The notes under the pieces were generated by a model. It ran no database searches. It was not told the origin of the DNA and was given only the letters and a program-made list of their open reading frames with translations. Shown here in pieces: positions 19,645 to 48,690 of a stretch of DNA of 64,000 nucleotides. This DNA is from Tilletia caries (taxonomy: Eukaryota > Basidiomycota > Exobasidiomycetes > Tilletiales > Tilletiaceae), in NCBI GenBank assembly GCA_032718865.1, contig JALUTQ010000003.1, forward strand, positions 464,001 through 528,000, written 5' to 3'. The translations under genes and the position numbers were made by a program. Numbering within the stretch: the stretch's first letter is position 1; every line of letters begins with the position of its first letter.

Positions 19645-20264
19645 TGAGCGCGAGACCGCGCGTACCTGCTTAAGCCTCAGTAGCCTTCCTATTTCTCTTC
19701 CTCGACAGGCAGCGCCCTACTTCCCCCTCAGCTCATCAGCATCCTTATTCCTGCTCACCAATCGCACCTGCAGAGAACATCGGCATGGCGAAGCGGGCGA
19801 AGCAGTGATCATTATGATGCATATATGACAATTTTTTGGGCGATGTCATATATCTGCATTATGACAATCTAGTTTTGGGAAGGCGATGTCATATATATGC
19901 ATTATGCAAATGTCATTTTTCTGTCATATGAAGTCATAAAATTGTCATATTTCTGTCATATTACGTAAGCAAACTTTCCGCCTCTGAGTTGACCGTAATA
20001 TCGCGTGGCGAAGCGCGTCTCGCCATGTGGTGAACCGCGAAGCGCGTCAAGCCGCGTCGCCGCGTTCCCTCTTTCAGGTTGGCGCAGTTTTTCACCTCAT
20101 ATCCAGCCATTCAGAACAGGCGCGTGAAGCTTGCTGCGGAACATGTAACATGTTGGGAGCCATTTTGAGCTCCGGAGCGTTTTTTTGTATCGGGAGAAGG
20201 GGCAGGGCCCAGGGGGATGCTGGAGACACGGAAGATGCCAAAACGCTTAATTTTATTCTGAAAA

Positions 20265-20553
20265 TGTGCTAGACGGGTCAGGCCTTTCTTTCTTTCTTTT
20301 TCTCTACTGCTCTCGCTTCCGGAGATAGTGGCTCCACGTGGCAACTCCACGTGGACTCACTATCTTATCTCCCTTTCTCTCTTATCTTTCTTGCTCGCTC
20401 CCCTCACGTCGCTACCTTTCCCTTTGTCCTCTCTCGGCCGAGTGCCTTCCCTCTCTCGTGCTCGTCACCTTCTCGCTGCTCCCTGCACTTGTACTTACTT
20501 GCTCCGGACATGGAATCACAACTCTGAAGCACTTGTATAGCTAGTCTATTACA
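20265..20553 (+). repeat. 5' LTR of the gypsy element
   Basis: A 289-bp terminal repeat from TGTGCTAGACGGG to CTATTACA, identical as far as I can read to 26824-27112. The element is flanked by the 5-bp duplication GAAAA (20260-20264 and 27113-27117). It contains two CCACGTGG E-box-like palindromes 15 nt apart (about 20333-20355) and a pyrimidine-rich tract, possible promoter elements. Confidence 0.93.
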
Positions 20554-20571
20554 TGGTGATGAGAGTATAGA
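20554..20571 (+). other. Probable primer-binding site of the gypsy element
   Basis: The bases directly after the 5' LTR start TGGTGATGAGAG, as expected for a site complementary to a tRNA 3' end (…CCA). I cannot name the tRNA from memory. Confidence 0.5.
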
Positions 20572-20639: not shown

Positions 20640-22030
20640 ATGCCAAAAGGATCCGGCAAGTCTAAGGAAGAGCCGACCACCTCTCGGTCCGGTTCTCCTT
20701 TGTCCGACCCACCCGCCATCACCCTCGAAGATGTTGCCTCGACTCTGGCTTCGTTCATGACCAGGATGGACTCCCGGATGGACGCTGTGGACTACAAGCT
20801 GGCCACGTTGGCCACCCCAGCTCAACCGCCCATCGCTGCGGCTGCGGTTGCTCCCGACACCTCCACCAACGTCGCACCCGACGTGGCCACCAAATCCCCC
20901 TCTGACGACGCTCGATCGGTCTCGTCCCCTACCGAGCAGGCAGCCGCACGACTCGCCGCGCAACATCCGGCGTTGTGGTCGCGTCTGCCTTCCGATTCCC
21001 GAAGTGTCGTCACTTCCGCGCTTGGTCGCGCGGGATACACCCTCACCGATCTCGACTCGCGCCCTCCGACAGCGGCCCCTCCCGTGTCGCGTCCGCTCAA
21101 GTGCCAGCGGGAGCTCATTGGCTCCTACGACGGCGAGCCCACCCGCTTGGAGCGGTTCCTCAGTCGGGTTGCCGATATGGCTCGCTCCAACTCCGATCCC
21201 GCGTGGGAACCTGCGGTCGTGGTGGCGATTCCCCAGGCGCTGGAAGGGATCGCGGCTCGCTGGCATGCAGGCCTGCCAACGACGACTGTGCGCGGCCTCC
21301 GCACGGTGGAGGATTACGCGCGTCTGATGCGTCGCGCCTTTGCTGTAAACCGGGCGCAGCTTCGTCAGGACGCGCATGATCGCCGGTGGCAAGAGTCTCA
21401 GGAGTCTGGAATGGCTTACCTGTTTGACAAGGTCCAGCTCTTGCGTTACGCGTTCGGCGATTCGTACACGGAGAGCGTTCTGGTGCAAGAGGTGGCCGAC
21501 AAGTTGCCGCCCTCCATGTATGCGTACATTCGCTTGCCGGAGGAAGGTGCCGTCCTCGATGATCTTCAGGACGCCATCATCCGTTGGGAGCCAGTCTGGA
21601 GGAAGGTGCACAACATTCCTCTCCTCGACTCGAGCTCGATGTCGTCGGACAAGGTCGTCAAAACCCCGTCAGCTCCGGTTTCTGCCCCGATCCGGCAGGC
21701 TCCGACGTCCGCGCCCCCTCCTCGTCCTCCCCGTGCGGTGCATCACACCGTTCCTCCCGCATCGGTGACGGCCCCGGGCCCGCAGACCTCCTTGCCGGCG
21801 ACATACGATCCCGCTCGGATCGTGCCGGCCGCGAATGGGCTGCCGCGCATGTACCGCCGGCCCAACTCCAATAAGGTGTTGCGGCTGGGTTGGAACTGCA
21901 ATCGCTGTGGGGGGGAGAGCATTTTGACTTTGAGCACGAACATCTGCTCCAAGCCGGCCAAATCAACACACTCACGGTCGCCGACTATCCGGAGATCGAT
22001 GAGGCTGATCTTGGCCTGGCCCCTTTTTGA
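20640..22030 (+). pseudogene. Gypsy gag (capsid) with one-base frame break
   Basis: ATG at 20640 opens a Gag of about 460 residues. A Ser/Pro-rich start is followed by a capsid-like core (RELIGSYDGEPTRLERFL, then WQESQESGMAYLFDKVQLLRY) and a Pro-rich stretch. The C-terminus should hold a metal-binding CNRC...H...H motif. In the sequence as given the G7 run at 21909-21915 throws the frame, and the open frame continues wrongly to 22049. Taking the run as six G restores a reading that ends at TGA 22028-22030, exactly at the frameshift signal. Gag packages the element RNA into particles. Whether the extra G is real or a base-call artefact cannot be told here. Confidence 0.8.
22021..22030 (+). promoter_or_regulatory. 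Programmed -1 frameshift signal at gag end
   Basis: CCCTTTT (22021-22027), read C CCT TTT in the gag frame, is a canonical X XXY YYZ slippery heptamer directly followed by the gag stop TGA. Slipping back one base leads straight into the pol frame, which opens there and has no good ATG of its own. This would set the Gag to Gag-Pol ratio. Confidence 0.65.
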
Positions 22031-25000
22031 GCGTCCGCAACGACGGTAAACTAGTGGCGGGCACCGACGTCGAACGGGCCCGCCCGCCTCCTCACCCTCC
22101 CGATGCGCCCGTCGTACATGCTGCGGTCGTGGAGAGCTTGGAAGTGACGGAGACGGAGTCTGATTCAGTCTCATTTGTCCGTGACGACGTTAAACTATCG
22201 ACCAATACTCACTGGTCCATCCCACATCCTTCCTCTAACCAGACTGACGCAGGGCCCTATGCCAGCCCTGTCGAAGCTGCGGTGAGGCTGGATCTTGGAA
22301 GGGAGGGAAGCGCCCCTCCGCTGCCAAGCAGCAAGGATGGTCAGCACGACTGTCCTGACGAGCTCGCGCCGGAGACAGCTCGTCGTAGCCCCTGGACTCA
22401 CACTGAGACCAGATTCAAGAGCGGCAGGGAGAGGGCTACGTCCCCCTCTGGTCCAAGACGGGACCTCCCTGCCGGGTACCATGTAGGCATGACCATGTGT
22501 GGAGATGACAGGGAGATTGGACCACTCCCTGATCTGAGACCCCATGGGCACCTTTCTAGGGGAGTACAGTCTCCCCTTTCTGCTGAGTTGGAACGGCCTA
22601 ATAAGCACGTTTCTCCATTTACAGATTTAGAATGCACAGTCAGAGATGAAGCTGTGAACGCACCTGAGGATGGGGAGGGACAACCGTCCACAAGTGGAAA
22701 CGCGCCCATACCGGCGCTTGCTTTACGCATCGAACCTCTGCCGCAGTTCTTCACTGCGCGGGCGTTCCCTGTGAACCGAGAGAATAGACCATTGCGTCAG
22801 AAGACGCGACGCATTGGAAAGATCGTGACAATTGCTCCTGGACCGGAGGTGGGCACGGGGACAGCATACAGACATCATGTGCCACTTACCATGCACATTC
22901 GCATTAATGACGCCTCTGGTAACCCCCTGTCCTCCCTCCTGGACACTGGCTCATCTCTCTCCATAATCGATCGCCAGCTGCTCGAGACGTTGGGAGGCAC
23001 GGTCCAAGGCCAACCCCTGCCTATCCACGGCATCGGCTCCAAGTCGTCCTTGGGGTGGAGTACGATGACGTTCTTCGTCGCCGTCGATGATGCCGTCGGC
23101 CAGTCCTTGTGCATGGAGTGCACCGTCGACTTCCATGTGCTCGAGGCGTTCGCGCCCGGACTGTGTTTGGGGCAGGATTTCATTAGCACACATGGAATCG
23201 CCATCCACTCTCGTCGTGGCACTGCCGTGCTGGAGCACAATGGGAATCCACTCACGTTTCCAGTGCGTGAGCACATGCCGGGGCCCTATGCCCGTCAAGC
23301 CGAGCTTTGCACGACGCGCGACATCGTTATTCCCGCTCGTTCCCATGCCTGGGTCCCCGTCGACACCGCCCCATTGGCTCCCGGTCTCGACTACACCGCG
23401 TTTCCTCGACTGATGTCCAACGCCGCGGAGACCGTGCGCTTGGCGGGGCCACTGGCTGTGATCGACTCCCGGACGGCGCATGTCCTCCTGACCAATGTCG
23501 GTACCCTCTCCACCTCTCTTTCTCGCCGTACTCCGGTCGCCGACGCTGTGGTCGCCCAACTTGGTGAGGTGGGGGTGCATGCGGCGCACGTCTTCGACTT
23601 GCCTGCGGCCATGCCGGGAGAGGCGTATCATGCGGCCGGCTCGTCCTTGTCTTTCTCTGTCGAGGTCGACATCGACCCGCTGGACGTGTGTGAATCGGTC
23701 GATGGGTCCGATCTCCCGTCGCCGACGGAGGAGGTGTCCGTTGCGATGGTCGACGGTGTGTTCAAAGTCGGGCTTGACGCTGAGGGTCGTCCGCATCCGG
23801 ACATTGTTGCGGTACTGGGTCGTCATTCGGCAGCGTTTGCTCTTGACGGTCGGCCTGGTCGAGTTGTCGGCCATGAGATGTCCATTGATCTTGACGACGA
23901 TCGCAACGTTCACCCCGAGGCCCCGCGCCGCGCGAGTCCGGAGAAGCAGCGCGCCATGGATGCAACGATTGATCAGCTGTTGGAGTGGGAGGTGATCGAG
24001 CCCAGCTCCAGTTCGGTCTCCTTCCCCGTCTTGATGGTCCGCCAGGGCGAGAAGTGGCGCTTTTGCGTGGATTATCGAAAGCTGAATGCGCATACGGTGG
24101 CGGACGCGTATCCTCTTCCGACCACTGATGCCATCTTCAACTCGTTGGCAGGGAAGCGAGTGTACAGTTCACTGGACGCCCTGCGGGGGTATCATCAGCT
24201 CGGTGTGCGGGAAAGCGACCGGTGGAAGACGGCGTTCACGTGTCACCGTGGCCTTTTTCCAATACCGCACCGTGCCCTTCGGCTTGCGCAATGCGCCCGC
24301 GGTGTTCCAGCGGCTGATGGACTCGCTGCTTGGGGATCTGCGATGGAAGGTGGCTGTGGTTTACATTGACGATGTCGTTGTGGCGACGAACACCATGGAC
24401 GAGCATGTACACGCGTTAGAGACCTTGCTGGCTCGCGCGGAAGACGTCGGTCTTCGCTTCAGCCAAGCGAAGTGCACCTTCGGCGTGCCGTCCCTGACGC
24501 TACTCGGGAGGAAGGTGTCCGGCGCGGGGGTGGCGGTCTGGTCCGATCGTGCTCGTGCTGTGTTGGATTTGGCTCGACCAAAGACGTTGCGGCAACTGTA
24601 CCATGCCATGGGGCTCTTTGGGTACTACCGCTCGTTCATTCCTCGATTTGCAACCGTTGCGGCCCCATTGACCGCCTTGACACGGGGATGGCGGTATGAG
24701 CGGTGTGGGGATCGCACTCGGCTCGTCGCGACCGATGGGTCCCCTGCCTCTGCGGATAGGGTCGAGATTCCGTGGGGTGACGAGCAGGACGCCGCGTTCG
24801 AGACGTTGAAGAGGGCGATTGCTTCTCCGCCGGTCCTCGCGCATCCGGATCCCGCTCGGCCTTATGTGCTTTACGTGGACGCGAGTAAGGATGGTTTTGG
24901 TGCGGTATTGCACCAGGTCTTTGAGGTGGATGATCCGGCACCGGCTGTGTCGCTTTCCGCTGCGGCGATTCCCGTGCAGCAGTCCTCGTTGCTTCCATCC

Positions 25001-26831
25001 ACGGTCGCACGCGAGCGTTGGCATGCCTGGCTATGTCGAGACCGCCACTTTGGCCCAATCCTTCGCGCTCTGGATGCTGGTGTTGAGGAGCCTGAGTGGG
25101 TGATGCAGGATGGTCTCCTCATTCGCCGCCAAGATGGGCTGCTCGCGCTACCCGAAGGCGGTGTTCCGGACATCCTTCGCACCGTCCATGATCAACGCGG
25201 TCACTTCGGATTCACCAAGACGTATCTGGCTGTTCGGCGACATTTCTGGCGTCCGGCGCTGTCAGTTGCTGTTCGAGCCTGGGTTAAGCATTGCCCACCT
25301 TGCGTTGCAACGAAGTTGGCACGCCGGACCGGACGGTTAGATGTCGAGGATGACGCCTCCCTCCCGTTCCAGTCCATCTCGGTGGACTTATTGCTGGGTT
25401 TCCCGCGGTCGAGGGCTGGTAATGATGCCGTCCTTGTGGTGTTGGACCTGTTCTCGCGCATGATCCTGCTCGAGCCGTGCGCCGCGTCGGTCACGGCTGA
25501 GGGTGTCGCCGCTATCCTCAGCGACCGCGTGCTCCGTTACGGATGGCGACCGAGTCGCTTGATCCCGGACTCGGAAGCGCGGTTGTCCGGCGTCGTTATG
25601 TCTGCCTTAGCGACGTCGCTGGGAGCTGTGTTGTCGCCGTCGGTCCCTCATCACCACCAAGCCAACCCGGTCGAACGGTCTATCCAGACCGTCAAGCGCG
25701 TCCTGCAGACGTTGTGCTTGGACTCCCGTGCTCATTGGGACAAGCGCGCCGTACCTGCCGCGGAGTTGGCGATGAATTCCACCCCGTCCGTGTCCACCGG
25801 CGTTTGTCCGTTCGACCTGGTCTTCGTTGCCCATCCGGATGTGGTACACGCCGTCTTTGATGCGCAAGAGCATGAGGGTGTCGGATCATTTGTTGAGCGG
25901 TTGACGGCGGCGGGAGCGCGGTTGGAGGATGCTCGTGCCTCGCTGGCGGAAGCTCGTCGCGCTCAAAAAGCGCGCTATGATGCGGTCCGGGCGCCGTTGC
26001 CCTCGTATGCTGTAGGGGATGCCGTCTTTGTGCGTTTGCCGGATCGACCGATTCCGGGTTCCCAGGAGAATAAGCTGGCGCCGCAGAAGATGGGTCCTTT
26101 CCGGATCAGTGCGGTCCTTAGTGACCACCGGGTGCGGTTGGAGCTGCCGGCGGACCTGAGGATTGGAGACACGTTTGCGGTCAGTCAGTTGGATGCTGTC
26201 CCTGGGGATGAGGATCCGTACGTCACTCACCGTGCGGGTTCGCCCGTCGAGGACGCTGATCGGGTTGCGCCTGCTTCTCCTTTCGCACCGTCTTCTCGTG
26301 CTTCCTCTCCGGTTCCTCGTCCCCCGCGGGCTCGGCGCACTCCGGGTGTGTTGCGAGAGTATGACGTGTCGGCGCGCGTCCATGCTATGTCGTCCTCGTT
26401 GTACGATGCTTTGCGTGGTCCGCTCCATCGCGCTCGGCGTCTCGAGGTTGATGGCCGGACGGTGATCTTGACGGAGCGACCTGTCGCCTTCTTGTCCCGG
26501 TTGACCATGCCATCGGAGCAAAAGCTTGTCGCGCCTGAGCTGGAGCTGTCGTGCCTTGCGTGGGCTTTTGGGCGATTCCTCCACTTGTTGGAGGGGGGGG
26601 GCCGACGTAACCGTGGTGACGGATCACGCTCCGTTGGGGGCGATGCTCACGAGTTCGGCCGGGGCGCGCTATGGACCGGTGATTTCGCGTTGCCGGGCGC
26701 AGCTGATGCCGCATCTCGCGCATCTGCGCTTCGTTCATCGGCCAGGCACCACACACACCAATGCTGATGCGTTGTCCAGGCTGGTCGTTCGTCCCGAGAC
26801 GGACGTTCTGCTCGACGCGGGGATGTGCTAG
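22027..26831 (+). pseudogene. Gypsy pol polyprotein with split RNase H
   Basis: Read from the frameshift site. After a ~250-residue linker comes an aspartic protease (LLDTGSSLSIID, near 22940). The reverse transcriptase follows, with KWRFCVDYRKLN (24054-24090) and the catalytic YIDD (24362-24373), then the first RNase H strand (YVLYVDASKDGFGAVL, about 24862-24910). The frame then passes straight to the integrase: an HHCC zinc motif (H-x3-H...C-x2-C, 25190-25310) and catalytic D, D and E near 25385, 25570 and 25672 (NPVERS). A GPF module follows (KMGPFRI). The other RNase H pieces come last: PSEQKLVAPELELSC, VVTDHAPLG and NADALSR (26500-26780). Frame breaks are extra T at 24254-24258 and extra G at 26593-26601. 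The final stop TAG lies in the 3' LTR. Confidence 0.88.
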
Positions 26832-27112
26832 ACGGGTCAGGCCTTTCTTTCTTTCTTTTTCTCTACTGCTCTCGCTTCCGGAGATAGTGGCTCCACGTGG
26901 CAACTCCACGTGGACTCACTATCTTATCTCCCTTTCTCTCTTATCTTTCTTGCTCGCTCCCCTCACGTCGCTACCTTTCCCTTTGTCCTCTCTCGGCCGA
27001 GTGCCTTCCCTCTCTCGTGCTCGTCACCTTCTCGCTGCTCCCTGCACTTGTACTTACTTGCTCCGGACATGGAATCACAACTCTGAAGCACTTGTATAGC
27101 TAGTCTATTACA
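26824..27112 (+). repeat. 3' LTR of the gypsy element
   Basis: Identical to the 5' LTR at 20265-20553, with TG...CA ends. The preceding GCGGGGA is a short purine tract that could prime plus-strand synthesis. The pol stop codon (26829-26831) falls inside the LTR. Confidence 0.93.
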
Positions 27113-27528
27113 GAAAATGCCAGGCACTCGGCGCCTGAGCGGTGAGCCTGACCAGAATTTAGAGCTCAGGTCATATAAAATGTCAGATTTGCCAAGAATA
27201 TGACATGATTATGCACGACCATATGACAGAATTATGCATCTTTTCGGCCCGGCTGTGGACGTTTTGTCAGAATACTGTCATACATAAGGCATATGTTCTG
27301 CATTGTCATATGACAGAATATGACAGAATTTAGGGTGGGAAAATTATGTCATATTTCTGTCATAAAGCTGTCATATGACAGCCACGGGAGGCATTATGGC
27401 CATAAATATGACAATGAGACTCTGTCATAAACCTGTCATATGACTATGACAATTTTTTTGTCATAATTCTGTCATATGCATAATATGACTTCATATGTAT
27501 GACAAAAGGTGATGATCACTGGGGCGAA

Positions 27529-30751: not shown

Positions 30752-30846
30752 GACAGCTTGAAGAAGGCCGAGCGACCAGTCACCAGTCTTTGTGAGTGTC
30801 TTCATTGCCCAAAATCAAGTATTACCCTTCACCGACTCATCATATC

Positions 30847-30926
30847 TGTTGTGAACATTCTACCACTATACTAAAAGGTGAGACCAGTCTCGACCCAAGT
30901 GTCATGGATGATGCATATATCCAACA
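30847..30926. repeat. 80-bp TGTTG...CAACA unit, copy 1 (copia left end)
   Basis: Starts TGTTGTGAACATTC and ends ATATCCAACA. Copies at 31126-31205 and 35920-35999 differ by at most one base. Copy 1 has the 5-bp sequence ATATC on its left (30842-30846), matching ATATC on the right of copy 3 (36000-36004). Confidence 0.85.
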
Positions 30927-31065
30927 CTCCCTCTCATCATCATGACCCTTTGGTCTGAGACGCGAGACCCCATAGGACTAGGGGTGAGACTCTTTCGGCC
31001 CGGAGTACCCGGAGCACGTGCTGTGGAAAAAAAACCCGACAAGCACCCGACAAGAAAATGGTCGG

Positions 31066-31205
31066 AAAAGAAGTCTGGAGATACCGGGAATCGAACTCAC
31101 GACAGAGTCGATCAGACTCTTAATCTGTTGTGAACATTCTACCACTATACTAAAAGGTGAGACCAGTCTCGACCCAAGTGTCATGGATGATGCATATATC
31201 CAACA
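31066..31205. repeat. 140-bp LTR-shared block, copy in the 5' end
   Basis: Begins AAAAGAAGTCTGGAG and ends with 80-bp unit copy 2 (31126-31205). It matches 35860-35999 with a single G/A difference near 31167. It contains the antisense tRNA-like sequence. Confidence 0.85.
31076..31152 (-). tRNA. tRNA-like sequence with broken acceptor stem, copy 1
   Basis: On the minus strand an A-box (TAGTATAGTGG, 31152-31142) and a B-box (GTTCGATTC, near 31095) are spaced as in a tRNA gene, with a TTTT stretch just beyond. The presumed 3' acceptor strand TATCTCC has no matching 5' partner, because the bases before the A-box are CACCTTT. No clean anticodon arm can be drawn. The plus strand contains CAGACTCTTAATCTG, a Lys(CTT)-like anticodon arm. 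I call it a tRNA-derived relic within the LTR, not a working tRNA. Confidence 0.4.
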
Positions 31206-31269
31206 TACCTCCGATCCTCTTCTTTCTTCGGCCCTCGGTCTTCTTCCTTCTCTGCCTCTCTTCTTCGGC

Positions 31270-34200
31270 ATGGACGACACCAACTCCTCCGCCATCTCCG
31301 GCATTCCTGCCCTCGTCGGCCTCGAAAACTTCTTCGCCTGGCGAGAGGCAATCGAGCCCGTCTTCATCGGCATCCGCGCGTTCGACATTGTCCGCGGCGT
31401 CGAGACTCAGCCAACTCTGCCGCCCAACGCCACCTCCACCGATGTGCGCCTGTCCGAGTCCTGGAAGGACAGGGACGCCAAGGCCATGTCCTACCTCCGC
31501 AAGACGGTCAGCGGGGCCCTCAAGGCCATGATTCGAGACCTCTCCTCGTCCGCCGACATGTGGTCCCTCCTCGCCAGTCTTCACGACTTGGGTTCCTCGG
31601 ATCATCGGAGCGCCATCAACCGCAAGATGGCGAACCTCTTTCTCGACGAGGGCGGAGACATGGTCCAGCACCTCAACTCCTACATGGAGCTGGTGGCTGA
31701 GGCGAGCGCGGCGGGTCTTCCTTGGGGCACGGAGGACAAAGACAAGTGCGACCGTTTCCTCGACACCCTTCCTCATTCGCTCAGGGTTGTCAGGACGGAG
31801 TGGCGGCAGCTTCCGAAGGACGAGCGGACCTTTTTTTGCAGCTCGTCCGGGTCTACAACGAGGAGAACGCTTCTCAGAAGCACACGGCGGAGCGCAGCGC
31901 CAACGCCATGGCAATGGCCGCTGCCAGCCAACATCTCCACATCGCCATCAAGGGCGTGGCAAACAAGGCCCGCTCCGGCAAGTCCTCTTCGGGTGGCGGC
32001 AAGAAGAAGTCTTCTTCTTCGCCTTCTTCTTCTCAGGCGACCTCCGGCAGCAGCAAGGGCAAGGGCAACAGCAACGGCAACAGCAAGCGTCTGCTCTGCT
32101 ACGGCTGTGGTGCTCGCGACCACGAACGTCCTGACTGTCCAGTCGCGAGCCACCTTCTTCCCGGCAATGGTCCGATCTGCTGGACATGTCACAAGCAAGG
32201 CCACGTCAAGTCCGAGTGTCCCAAGTCGACTTCGTCGTCCGGAAAGGCTGCCGCCGCCCTCGAGTCTTATCCAGACGCCGACGAGATGCTCGCAGCCATG
32301 TTTGAGCCCTCCGTTCTTGCCGCCTCCACGACGTCGACCTTGATTCCCTTCATGATCGACTCTGGTGCATCACAGCACATTGTCGACCGACCCGAGCTGC
32401 TCCTCAACTCTCGGAAAGCGGACAAGACCTTGACCTTCAAGACGGTTGGCTCCAAGCAGGCATCCGACCACATCGGCGATGTCACTGGACTTCTTCCCTC
32501 CGGCCGCCGCGTCACTTTCCTGGACGTTGTGCTTCTCCCCGGCGCCGGAGTCAACTTGCTTTCGGAGGAACTGCTGCGCGAGCGTGGCTGGATCAAAGTC
32601 ATCGACGAGGATGACAACGCCCACCTCCAGCACAAGGACAACGCCTCTTGGCGCATGTCTTTGACCAAGCGTGGTCGAGCTCGATGGCTGCTGTTACACG
32701 TCGACCTTGCGGCCTCCACATCGTCTCCCTCAGCAATGCTGGCACCAATGCAGCCCGCTCAGCGCGATCCCGCTCTCGAGGTTCACATTCGCCTCGGTCA
32801 CTTGGGCTTCAGCACCATCAAGAAGCTCGTCCGTTCGGGTCATCTTCCTCCCATTCCTGGGCTGAACGATGCCACGCCTTGGTGCGATAGCTGCGAAGCT
32901 ACCAAGGCTACCCGTCGACCGTTCAACGACGCGCCTCTCCACGCGAGTTCTCCGCTGGAGATCATCCTCACGGATGTTGGCGGTCCCTTGGTGACTTGTT
33001 TTTGGTGGTTTCCAGTACTACGCGACCTTCATTGACGAGTACACGGACTACACCAAGGTCGACTTACTCCGCTCCAAGGCCGAGGTTTTTGCTCGCCTTG
33101 TTGAGTTCGTCAAGGTAGCCGAACGGACTTTCGGCACCAAGGTGCAAGTCATTCGCACCGACGGCGGCGGCGAGTACGTCAACAAGCACATGTCCACCTG
33201 GACTGCTTCTCAGGGCATCCTCCACCACATCACAACGCCCCACACCCCGGAACTCAACGGTGTGGCTGAGCGCAAGAATCGTACCCTCAAGGAGATGACC
33301 GCCGCCATGCTTCACAGTAGCGGCCTCCCGGTTCAGTGGTGGGGACATGCGATTTTATTCGCTGCGGTGTTGCTCATGAAGGTAACCTTCGTCAAAGACG
33401 GTCGGACGGTTTGGGAGTGGGTACACAAGCGCAAACCCTCCCTTGGCAAGACTCGAGCATTCGGTTCTCCATGCTGGGTTCATATTCCCGCCGCTAACCG
33501 CACCAAGTCGGACCTCACCACTCCCAAGGCCTGGAAGGGACGTTTGGTCAGCTGGCCGACACAGCGCAGCGGCTGGGGGGTGCACAACGAGACCACGGGG
33601 AAGATTGTCTTCTCCCGCAACGTCTCTTTCGGCCCCAAGCTCTCGTCCAAAGTCACCGAGGTCTCCGAGCCTTCCAACATCGTCCAGCTGAACGTGGAGC
33701 CTGGTGATCCCGGCTTCCTCGAGTACGACGAGGAAGACATTTCCGACGATGACGCGGAGCCAGGTCCCGACGCCAATAATGTCGAACTTCTTCCTCTTGG
33801 CCGCAAACGCCCTGAGCCCGAGGGGGTGAATCATGCGCCCGGCAACAGTCCTGCCGTGGCCGATCGACCTCAAGGCATTCGCCGGCTTCCCCCGCGCGCG
33901 CTGGCCGCGGTCAACGTTCGTCTGCTTTTCGGGACACGTACGCAGCGTTCATGCAGGAGTCGGAAGGGTTTCTTTGCAAGATTGCCCTCGTCGACGACGA
34001 CCCCACAAGCTACGGCGACGCCATGTCGAGTCCTGAACGTCAGCAGTGGGCCAAGGCTTTCGAAGCGGAGCTGGAGTCTCTGATCAAGAACGAGACGCTC
34101 GAGGAGGTGGTCCTCCCTCCCGGCGCCAAGGTCGTATCGACCAAGTGGGTCTGCAAGACTAAGAGGGACGCAGACGGCAACTACCTCAAGCACAAGGCTC

Positions 34201-45776: not shown

Positions 45777-48690
45777 ATGTCTAGCCAGCAGCAGCATGCG
45801 GAACGCATTCAAGGCGTGTTTCAGCAACTGTCTCCGCATCACTTGAGCTTCGGAAAATTCGTGCGCGGAGCGCTTCGGTCTCAGGACAGCATAATTCGCA
45901 GCACTGTTACCAAATGGATGCGAATACCAGAGCCAGGCCCGACAAGCAACGCCGAAGAAGCTTCGACAAATGGTGGGGACGTTGTGCATAAATATGGACC
46001 GGAAGATTTTTTGAACACTCTCGTCCTCGAGACATACGCCAGAGGCAACAGCGACGGAATTAAACGTCTCAAACAGGCCCTCCTGCAGCATGCGGTCCCG
46101 CTTTTGGTGGAAGAGGTCGAGCTCTTTTCCAGCAACGACAGTCAGTACCTACGCGTCTCAGCACCCGATGTGGACACCTGCTCTGCCTTGCCCGACTCTC
46201 TTGGACCCCTCGTCGATTTATATCGAGCGAAGCTTCCCGCCCTTTTCCGACTGTTCTCTCTGCTCCTCTCCGCCAGTGCGACTATCAGCAACAGTGACGC
46301 AGTCACAGTATTGACCGCTGAGGAGAGAGTGAGTGATTTCGTCTCTTCTCTGCCACGTCGTTTACGTTTTCAGCTCGCATCATTGACATTCATCCTTCAC
46401 ACAGATCATTGTACCTTGCATGTCGGCGATGCTCTTTGCCCGCAATAGACTCTTCAATCGCTTTCAAATGCTCGTTGGCGTCTTCCTCGCTGTGACCGAT
46501 ACTCCCGACGTGGTGAAAGCGTTCCTTCATCACTGTGGCTTGGCGGTATCGCAACCCACAACTCGTACGACGTTGGAAAGCATCTCGGAGGCAGCCATTC
46601 CCAGCGCCCGGAAGCTGTTTGCGGACAAGGCTCTCATCAAAGTCTTTCTCTTTGATAACATCAATATATACATGCGCCGACGCCAAACGCGGCTCACGGA
46701 CTACAGCACCGCCGCCGCGTTGACTATGCGGACCATCTTTGCCCTTCCCTCTTTCTGTGACCCCTCGCACTTCACCAAAGAGCACATACGACAGCTCCGC
46801 GACGCAGACCGGTCACTTGTCAGCATGTCCGACGCCCTCCCCGAAGAGCATTTTCTCGAACGAGCGGCTGAAATCCACATCGCTCAAAGCCTTCTCGACG
46901 TGGTCGAATGCTCAGATCGAACACGTTCATCCATCAAGAAACGTCTAGAAACGCTCTGCAGTGAGCATGCAATGGACCTTGTTGCACCTGAAGCAACCAA
47001 GCTGGTCTGTCTGAAGCTTCTCCGCCAGAATGAAGGAACTCTCGAAGGCATTCAGACTGTTTTAACGGAGACTACAGGAGACGTGAACAGCGATGTGGAT
47101 CCATATCTGGTTGCGGGAGACCTGTTGACGGTCCGAAATACACAAGCAGTACAGGATGCCGGTCAATACAAAGACGACGATGCGCTCCAACGTCTCGACT
47201 ATGCCTGGGCGATAAGCGGACCATGGCACCTCCTTCAGAGCTGGGTCTACCTTATCTTCAAAGCGCACTTTTCTGCGACCAAGGCAGGCAAAGATGCTTG
47301 CCTTGACCGCGTGCGAGAGGTCCTTCGCCGGGGACGGACCGCACTGCGTGAAGACAAACCCCTCTTCAATGAGGGGTGGGAGTTTGGGAAACAAGTGTGG
47401 GCTGGAAGATTGCGGGCAATTCTAGAGTGAGCATCTCGACAGTTCTTGGGTTTCAAGTGCCCTAACCCAAAGCACTCACGCATTGATCTTCTCCAGTATG
47501 GAGCGCGGAGTCGAACCAAACAAGGAAACGGAACCATGGTGCCCCAGCACAAAGAAGTTCTTTGCCATGTGTAGGCATGTGTACCGCAAGTACCTGACCG
47601 CGACGGCAACAGAGCGAGCTCGAGAAGCAGGTGATGAAGTCCATGCTGCTGCCTGTTGCTTCATGCGCGACTGGCTCATCGATATGGAATATGCTGCCGC
47701 AACGAAGAATGGAGACTTAGGGAGAATGAGATCAACGGAGCTCTTCATGGGGATGGCTTTCTTTGGAGCAGGTCAACACAACTATGCGCACCTGATTTTG
47801 GACCGCCTACTTGCTGACAAGGTGCTGCCAAGCTCGACCTCGAGAATCCTACGTATTGCCCAGCTGGTCAACCGCAGAGGGAAGGAAGGGGCGTTTGAGG
47901 GCGCCGATCATTTCCAGGAGACTATGAACAAAGAGATTCAGGTTAGTATGGCAAAAGGGGCACGACTATCCTCCAGAAACTAGGACTGACCATGAGTACT
48001 ACCCCCTGACTTCGGCAGAGGGCGGACACCAGCAGAGCGAGCCATCATGTGTTGGATCGACTTGAGGATCGCCTCTCCGCCATTGCGGAACACTCACGTC
48101 ACGTCAAAGAGACGTTTGCATCGGCTTGGAACACACCACTGTATGATCGACAACGCAAGACAAAGGGAGCTGAGAAAGATATCGAACAGATAAAACGCTT
48201 TGCTTCGGACACGCACCTCTTTGACACCATTCCAAACAGAAGGATCATGGTCACGGCATCAAACCCAACACACGGCAAGGACGACAAGTTGACGGCAAAG
48301 GAAGCGGCCAACAGGGATGCGGAGCACGGTGCGCCGCCGTTCCTTTTGCTCGACGTGCTCGAGCGAGGCTATGTGAAGCTGAGGAAGGGAAGTCTGGCAA
48401 AGTGGCAAGGCAGAAACAGTGGTATGGAGATCCGTCAGCTCCTGCTCGAGAATTTGGCCGAGGAGGACGCGGAAGACTACGAAGCTCTCACCGATGAAAC
48501 TGACAATAGCCGGGCCCAAGCAGCTGGCATCAAGGTTGCGGCAGGGTATCGTGAGGCTCGTTCCTTCATACGCTCGAAAGAGGTGTGGAACGAAGATGAT
48601 CTGGGTGTCGTGGGCGAGGCGGAAGAGAGAGCTGGCGATTGCGCGCACGACGAGGCCACTGCGCGTATGCCGAGGCCTAAGAACTTGTAA
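45777..48690 (+). CDS. DUF6589-like protein
   Basis: Four exons (45777-46328, 46405-47426, 47497-47941, 48019-48690) with introns of 76, 70 and 77 nt (GTGAGT, GTGAGC and GTTAGT donors, all AG acceptors) give 896 residues without a break. The centre, about residues 260-600, resembles DUF6589: a buried FDNINIYMRRRQTRL segment, then alternating helices, and WHLLQSWVYLIFKAHF near residue 460. The C-terminal 220 residues are charged and helical (EEDAEDYEALTDE). DUF6589 proteins are numerous in basidiomycetes and have no established biochemical role. The gene is tail to tail with a RecQ-like helicase relic 300 bp away, a pairing that suggests both came as one mobile or subtelomeric unit. The family call is by motif memory only, but the gene model is solid. 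Confidence 0.7.

Follow-up and report, generated by a model that had tools for sequence, protein, structure and literature searches.

RNase H in two pieces around the integrase in a lineage of fungal Ty3/gypsy LTR retrotransposons

A 64,000-nucleotide (nt) stretch of the Tilletia caries genome (contig JALUTQ010000003.1, positions 464,001 to 528,000; hereafter the window) contains a long terminal repeat (LTR) retrotransposon of the Ty3/gypsy type in which the integrase lies between two parts of the ribonuclease H (RNase H). The upstream part (RHa) follows the reverse transcriptase (RT) and carries the first catalytic Asp; the downstream part (RHb) holds the rest of the fold and ends the pol gene. 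On the evidence of sequences and structure models, the integrase is very probably a domain insertion in the β2-β3 hairpin of the element's own RNase H, a discontinuous domain for which we predict activity and folding in cis. Domain order, conservation, a single clade, retained catalytic residues, purifying selection and compatible structure models all argue for this arrangement. Because it has been kept through a long evolution, the nested layout most likely represents a functional arrangement, not a damaged copy.

Domain order and position of the break

The pol region of the window element gives Pfam matches in the order RVT_1, PF17919 (profile positions 1-53), Integrase_H2C2, rve, SH3_Tf2-1 and PF17917 (profile positions 30-70). 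Since the two RNase H stretches flank the integrase matches, the integrase sits between two complementary RNase H halves. The rve match (E 0.011) is below its own cut-off. One open reading frame (ORF 24086-26767) spans both the RHa/integrase and the integrase/RHb junctions. An earlier sequence-only reading of the window had noted the first RNase H strand ahead of the integrase and the Glu helix and the TDHAPLG and NADALSR motifs behind it, and the motifs are indeed found there, at 24860-24928 and within RHb, respectively. The parts of the element are as follows.

20260..20264, + strand: left target-site duplication, GAAAA, from the sequence
20265..20553, + strand: 5' LTR, TGTG...TACA, 289 nt, one of a 100% identical pair
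20554..20565, + strand: putative primer-binding site TGGTGATGAGAG; the same or a near-identical stretch follows the 5' LTR of elements L059-L062
20640..22049, + strand: gag-like ORF of 469 amino acids (aa), so named from its position
22900..23046, + strand: aspartic protease, Asp_protease_2 (Pfam E 1.3e-4; 23.1 bits, below the cut-off of 24.3)
24049..24508, + strand: RT core, RVT_1 (Pfam), in two frames with a homopolymer run near 24252
24860..24928, + strand: RHa, RNase H strands β1-β2 with the first catalytic Asp, PYVLYVDASKDGFGAVLHQVFEV (PF17919 stretch 24773-24931; relatives)
24929..25162, + strand: presumed first linker and N-terminal extension of the integrase
25163..26194, + strand: integrase, with H2C2 at 25163-25315, rve core at 25364-25654 and Tf2-1-like SH3 at 26015-26194 (Pfam)
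26195..26452, + strand: second linker, corresponding to where the chromodomain sits in relatives outside Tilletia
26453..26828, + strand: RHb, the remaining RNase H with β3, Glu helix, TDHAPLG and NADALSR (Pfam; relatives)
26814..26823, + strand: putative polypurine tract GACGCGGGGA, overlapping the end of RHb
26824..27112, + strand: 3' LTR, the other member of the 100% identical pair
27113..27117, + strand: right target-site duplication, GAAAA, from the sequence

The TG..CA ends of the LTRs and the short target-site duplication are those of Ty3/gypsy elements. With identical LTRs and an intact GAAAA duplication, the window copy bears out the suggestion that recently inserted copies carry the permuted order. 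The 3' LTR holds the pol stop codon (26829-26831) in its first 8 nt. RHb begins with GRTVILTERPVAFLSRLT (26453); near 26592 a homopolymer run shifts the frame and RHb is completed in a different one. Homopolymer runs break the window copy in this way in all three of gag, RT and RHb (20640-26596), the break in gag falling at a G run near the Zn-knuckle end of the ORF. Pfam scans returned no gag match for the gag-like ORF and no chromodomain match for the element.

The position of the break can be read from a related split protein, P0081, whose best sequence match among solved structures is Ty3 Gag-Pol (E 8.2e-71). The RT is assigned to the Ty3 type by this sequence match, copia-type elements being in none of our trees. 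Residues 298-344 of P0081 align with Ty3 860-906 and residues 858-908 with Ty3 916-966, and the integrase (419-759) corresponds to Ty3 1090-1439; the hairpin of Ty3 Gag-Pol that corresponds to the break is 907-915. In the structure models of P0081 and of a second split protein, P0152, the break lies between two RNase H strands, which we take to be strands 2 and 3. By their Pfam stretches, RHa lacks everything from β3 onward and RHb lacks β1-β2, so that the halves complement each other; for the identity of the two halves, these Pfam matches are stronger evidence than the Ty3 alignment.

Copies in the genome and relatives in other fungi

The assembly surveyed comprises 38.1 Mb in 40 contigs. A DNA search of the whole assembly finds junction 1 (100% identity, rounded) and junction 2 (99-100%) together at the same 11 places, window copy included. 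A protein query running from the end of RT through RHa and integrase to RHb, for which 69 of 389 candidates were scored, matches at least 76 stretches: the 11 of the window family, one partial relative at 86% identity and the rest at 53-65%. RHa, integrase and RHb follow one another on one strand at 30 of 30 loci examined (11 window-family and 19 divergent), with an RT piece upstream in 29. The order is thus permuted relative to Ty3/gypsy well beyond the window, as first proposed, and the objection that all other copies might be contiguous fails.

RHa to the end of RHb is one open frame in 15 of the 19 divergent loci. An alignment of the 11 window-family copies that spans RT to RHb (2478 columns) has two columns with substitutions and 15 with indels, and all of the indels fall in six homopolymer runs; the frame breaks look like sequencing error, perhaps from long reads, or slippage. 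Four divergent elements are whole, with terminal repeats 100%, 100%, 99.4% and 100% identical over 146, 260, 313 and 400 nt, and three of them have visible target-site duplications (GCAGT, AGGTC, AGCTT). Their pol frames measure 1533, 1522, 1526 and 1450 aa, the 1526-aa frame stopping early inside RHb. In the divergent split element L061 (2864-7444), the pol frame breaks off in RHb at roughly the LLEG site where that of the window copy ends.

Standard elements with contiguous RNase H coexist in the same genome. A genome scan with PF17917 (150 of 315 candidates scored, rows not individually verified) contains a block of 69 matches, counted by eye, that start at profile position 27-30 and reach at most 56.1 bits, and 75 of the 81 others start at positions 1-5; PF17919 gives the mirror image. 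Among nine standard stretches (L063-L071), inspection by eye found a contiguous in-frame RNase H in eight and a frame that ended before the RNase H in one.

The sequence-only reading had also proposed a search of related basidiomycetes, and this extends the split beyond the genus. The pol of L059 gave 327 database matches (7993 candidates scored), the best 120 of which are all from Tilletia (T. controversa, T. caries, T. laevis, T. indica and T. walkeri), the top one at 95% in T. controversa. The order RT-RHa-integrase-RHb is present in 106 of these 120 by best blastp match (11 lack RHb and three lack RHa) and in 107 by profile. With the divergent P0125 as query, the search extended to Parajaminaea phylloscopi, which belongs to the Microstromatales (Tilletia to the Tilletiales), and to further relatives outside Tilletia. 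Pfam scans reveal the split in five of six proteins (P0140, P0142, P0144, P0147 and P0148), the sixth, P0149, being contiguous, and in all eight further relatives scanned. Identity to P0125 over the compared region is 35% for P0140, which comes from the yeast P. phylloscopi, and 32% for P0147.

Of the 13 scanned split relatives outside Tilletia, 11 have a chromodomain after the integrase and before RHb (P0144, P0147, P0148, P0150-P0154, P0156, P0159 and P0160); P0140 and P0142 have no match. The chromodomain family PF00385 is not among the domains listed for any of the 120 Tilletia proteins, which have a conserved LRDF...LRGP..RPR stretch instead.

RHa, integrase and RHb profiles sort 226 proteins into 137 split, 60 contiguous, three integrase-first and 26 incomplete, counts that carry no information on abundance, as the queries were split elements and the set holds many close copies. 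The gap between the RNase H halves spans 279-637 aa (median 517) in the split set versus a median of 5 aa (range -3 to 54) in the contiguous set, and linker length varies among split proteins. One pol with contiguous RNase H, P0162, is named and listed with a dUTPase domain (PF00692).

Origin, function and alternative explanations

RT plus integrase sequences from 81 proteins, with RNase H columns excluded, yield a tree in which all 23 split rows group in a single clade (Shimodaira-Hasegawa-like approximate likelihood ratio test (SH-aLRT) support 99). The contiguous P0149 is sister to this clade (94), and most of the neighbouring elements have a chromodomain among their listed domains. When the tree is built on RHb only (76 rows, 98 columns, with cellular and archaeal-type RNases H left out), the split clade is recovered at 97 with the same sister at 91; in a smaller RT tree with seven standard elements of the same genome, the split elements are again a single clade (100/98). 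Caution is due with these trees, given their long branches, the quick searches behind them and the selection of rows. Because the RT-integrase and RHb trees agree on one split clade and one contiguous sister, the sequences are most simply explained by a single, old interruption of the RNase H native to the element, inside one chromovirus-like pol. The split appears to predate the divergence of the sampled clade, which takes in fungi of two orders, and a recent origin is not supported. The relocation may have been the integrase moving in or RHb moving out. The sequence-only reading had seen in a 10-mer shared by the junctions (GAGGTGGATG/GAGGTTGATG) a possible trace of recombination or template switching. 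We reject this microhomology as a scar: the 10-mer is confined to the window family and, because it is absent from the 16 divergent loci compared, is a local coincidence of that family.

The four acidic residues of the RNase H site (D-E-D-D) are kept in 135, 137, 134 and 129 of the 137 split proteins, and seven of the eight missing last residues are gaps. Ratios of non-synonymous to synonymous substitution (dN/dS) point to purifying selection on both RNase H halves. For the pair L043/L044 the values are 0.029 (RHa), 0.024 (RHb), 0.062 (integrase) and 0.022 (RT), and for L051/L058 they are 0.015 (RHa, 31 codons) and 0 (RHb, 63 codons). Medians for pairs with dS below 2 are 0.112 for RT (30 pairs), 0.169 for RHa (35), 0.181 for integrase (33) and 0.173 for RHb (27), drawn from 134 pairs, most of which are saturated at silent sites. 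A working permuted polyprotein is the best supported of the options originally put forward.

AlphaFold models of P0081 (79-row alignment; mean predicted local distance difference test (pLDDT) 75.5; predicted template modelling score (pTM) 0.39) and P0152 (38 rows; pLDDT 75.7; pTM 0.46) show confident RHa strands and a confident RHb sheet and helices, joined by low-confidence linkers. The stretches with pLDDT below 50 are 352-366 and most of 775-827 in P0081, and 198-204 and 693-734 in P0152. The P0152 model aligns with the RTs of xenotropic murine leukaemia virus-related virus (XMRV), Moloney murine leukaemia virus (MMLV), cauliflower mosaic virus (CaMV) and Ty3 from residue 1 to 826-840, over 225-276 residues at 4.4-4.7 Å. 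RHa extends no further than residue 195, which puts a minimum of 30 to 81 aligned residues beyond it, in ranges that end in RHb. For P0081, 367 of 390 residues align with Ty3 RT (model range 3-941) at 7.1 Å. Foldseek matched RT and integrase chains, with ranges that do not reveal whether RHb was included; a search of a viral structure library added nothing. The models are compatible with halves that fold together: both align with known RTs into RHb, and confidence in the models as a whole is low.

Several observations weigh against a working nested RNase H. Whole-model pTM is low, AlphaFold may have rebuilt a familiar, learned RNase H fold, and the RNase H pieces on their own match Ty3 weakly (2.9 and -0.2 bits). 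Asn replaces the first Asp in two of the 137 split proteins; by profile, 11 of the 120 listed proteins lack RHb and two lack RHa. In this assembly, none of the 11 window-family copies has RHa to the end of RHb in a single frame.

That last observation, together with the coexistence of standard elements, would suit a single dead or misassembled copy moved by a helper element. This reading, which we consider barely credible, is already refuted for the architecture: both junctions occur at 11 places, the order recurs in 19 of 19 divergent loci, and open pol frames of 1533, 1522 and 1450 aa exist in three other families, with further split elements in other species. A helper element could still have moved the window copy itself. 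Equally hard to credit is that RHb belongs to a second RNase H acquired downstream of the integrase while RHa is the decaying native one. Plant Tat elements and retroviruses did gain additional RNase H domains, according to PMC10508981 and PMC12440569, but here the Pfam stretches are complementary instead of overlapping, RHa keeps its Asp in 135 of 137 proteins and is under purifying selection, and RHb has the same contiguous sister as RT and integrase. It is also very unlikely that the RNase H of this lineage is dispensable and that the elements rely on that of the host, given four catalytic residues kept in nearly all of the 137 proteins and dN/dS values in both halves like those of RT and integrase.

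The integrase stretch could in principle be an intron, with splicing joining RHa to RHb and unspliced RNA yielding RT-integrase. Splicing at GAG|GT...GAG|GT in the window would keep the frame, and 12 of 15 copies tested have an NAG/GT 48 nt downstream of where the LYVDAS motif begins. However, this NAG/GT encodes conserved Gln-Val codons, none of the 15 loci has a GTRNGT donor 18-140 nt downstream of the motif start or an in-frame GTRNGT/YAG pair, and a lax NAG/GT donor raises the latter count to two. The test used consensus splice sites on sequence alone and covered 15 of the 30 loci, one per group, with L048, L052 and L055 omitted because the motif pattern missed them. We regard splicing as extremely improbable. 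Proteolysis is a more serious candidate, although we give it less than an even chance: the protease would cut the linkers on either side of the integrase, and free RHb would bind RT-RHa non-covalently. Both linkers of both models contain low-pLDDT stretches, linker length varies and Ty3-type elements free their integrase, whereas a single covalent chain would hold the halves together without an extra step. This is a variant of the nested-RNase H explanation, because both need the halves to meet.

Under the nested-RNase H explanation, Pol would be translated as protease-RT-RHa-integrase-RHb. RHb would then fold back onto RHa, itself fused to the RT connection, and the two would rebuild one RNase H with its D-E-D-D site on RT. 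The two ends of the hairpin are adjacent in the fold, so the integrase and linkers could loop out at its tip. The rebuilt domain would serve reverse transcription as in Ty3, and the protease would either free the integrase, leaving a two-piece RNase H, or leave RT and integrase fused. More tentatively, and we think this unlikely, the nesting could be functional and not just tolerated, with RT, RNase H and integrase (with chromodomain) forming one interlocked enzyme. If so, the usual cleavage between RT and integrase would be impossible without severing the RNase H, which would become active only once the whole of Pol, integrase included, had been made. Reverse transcription would be physically tied to integration, and a third layout of retroelement polymerase would stand next to the gypsy and copia orders.

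Elsewhere in the window, TGTCATATGACA occurs three times at 27304-27445, once with a mismatch (0.08 occurrences expected), in an AT-rich stretch directly after the element, and a similar sequence, TGTCATAT, precedes it near 19820-19960. The repeats perhaps mark a small transposon into which the element inserted. Next to a perfect 83-nt direct repeat (30844-30926 and 31123-31205) is an ORF (31018-32343) that encodes a copia-type gag domain, and the ORF at 46420-47430 contains DUF6589 (E 3.4e-20), a family of unknown function.

Relation to known retroelements

Pol domain order serves to classify LTR retrotransposons, and their processing is usually described as a cut between RNase H and integrase. 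The split clade, long-lived and with some recent insertions, departs from both, its RNase H being broken in two with the integrase inside. Its layout makes the function of a discontinuous RNase H, the retention of integrase on RT and the handling of such a polyprotein by the protease open to experiment. Annotation tools that expect RT-RNase H-integrase would find two partial RNase H matches and may call the elements broken. We are aware of no other retroelement whose RNase H encloses an integrase, and we found no description of one in the open-access literature accessible to our search, which left most subscription journals outside. A survey of fungal elements in which RT and RNase H cluster alike mentions no such split in its accessible text (PMC3248453). 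The layout is thus a Ty3/gypsy variant for which we found no earlier description, which is not proof of novelty.

Sequence evidence places the lineage among the Ty3/gypsy LTR retrotransposons, probably as a derivative of the chromoviruses. It shares with them LTRs, a 5-bp target-site duplication, the protease-RT-RNase H-integrase domain set, a Tf2-1-like SH3 and, in 11 of 13 split relatives outside Tilletia, a chromodomain, and its clade stands beside chromodomain-listing elements in the RT-integrase tree. In contrast, the RNase H of chromoviruses is contiguous and precedes the integrase, whereas in the split elements the integrase lies inside it.

The accessible text of PMC2774666 describes Gmr1-type elements as a Ty3/gypsy lineage with a moved integrase and a Ty1/copia-like order; because these elements deviate, RT-RNase H-integrase is typical of Ty3/gypsy but not required. 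Their integrase precedes an RT and an RNase H that are whole, an order seen at none of the Tilletia loci. The integrase-first proteins of our set (P0199, P0204 and P0216), which we provisionally label Gmr1-like, group in a clade of their own. A rearranged RNase H region is likewise found in dual-RNase-H elements, among them retroviruses, plant Tat elements and oomycete aRNH elements. However, they gained an extra RNase H, the retroviral original becoming a tether, while the split elements have one RNase H in two pieces; Pfam finds no two domains each with its own β1 strand in the window or in the relatives. Discontinuous domains that enclose a nested domain in other proteins resemble the split elements in having the insertion at a hairpin tip with adjacent ends. 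Among known rearrangements of retroelements, Gmr1-type and dual-RNase-H elements come closest to the split layout.

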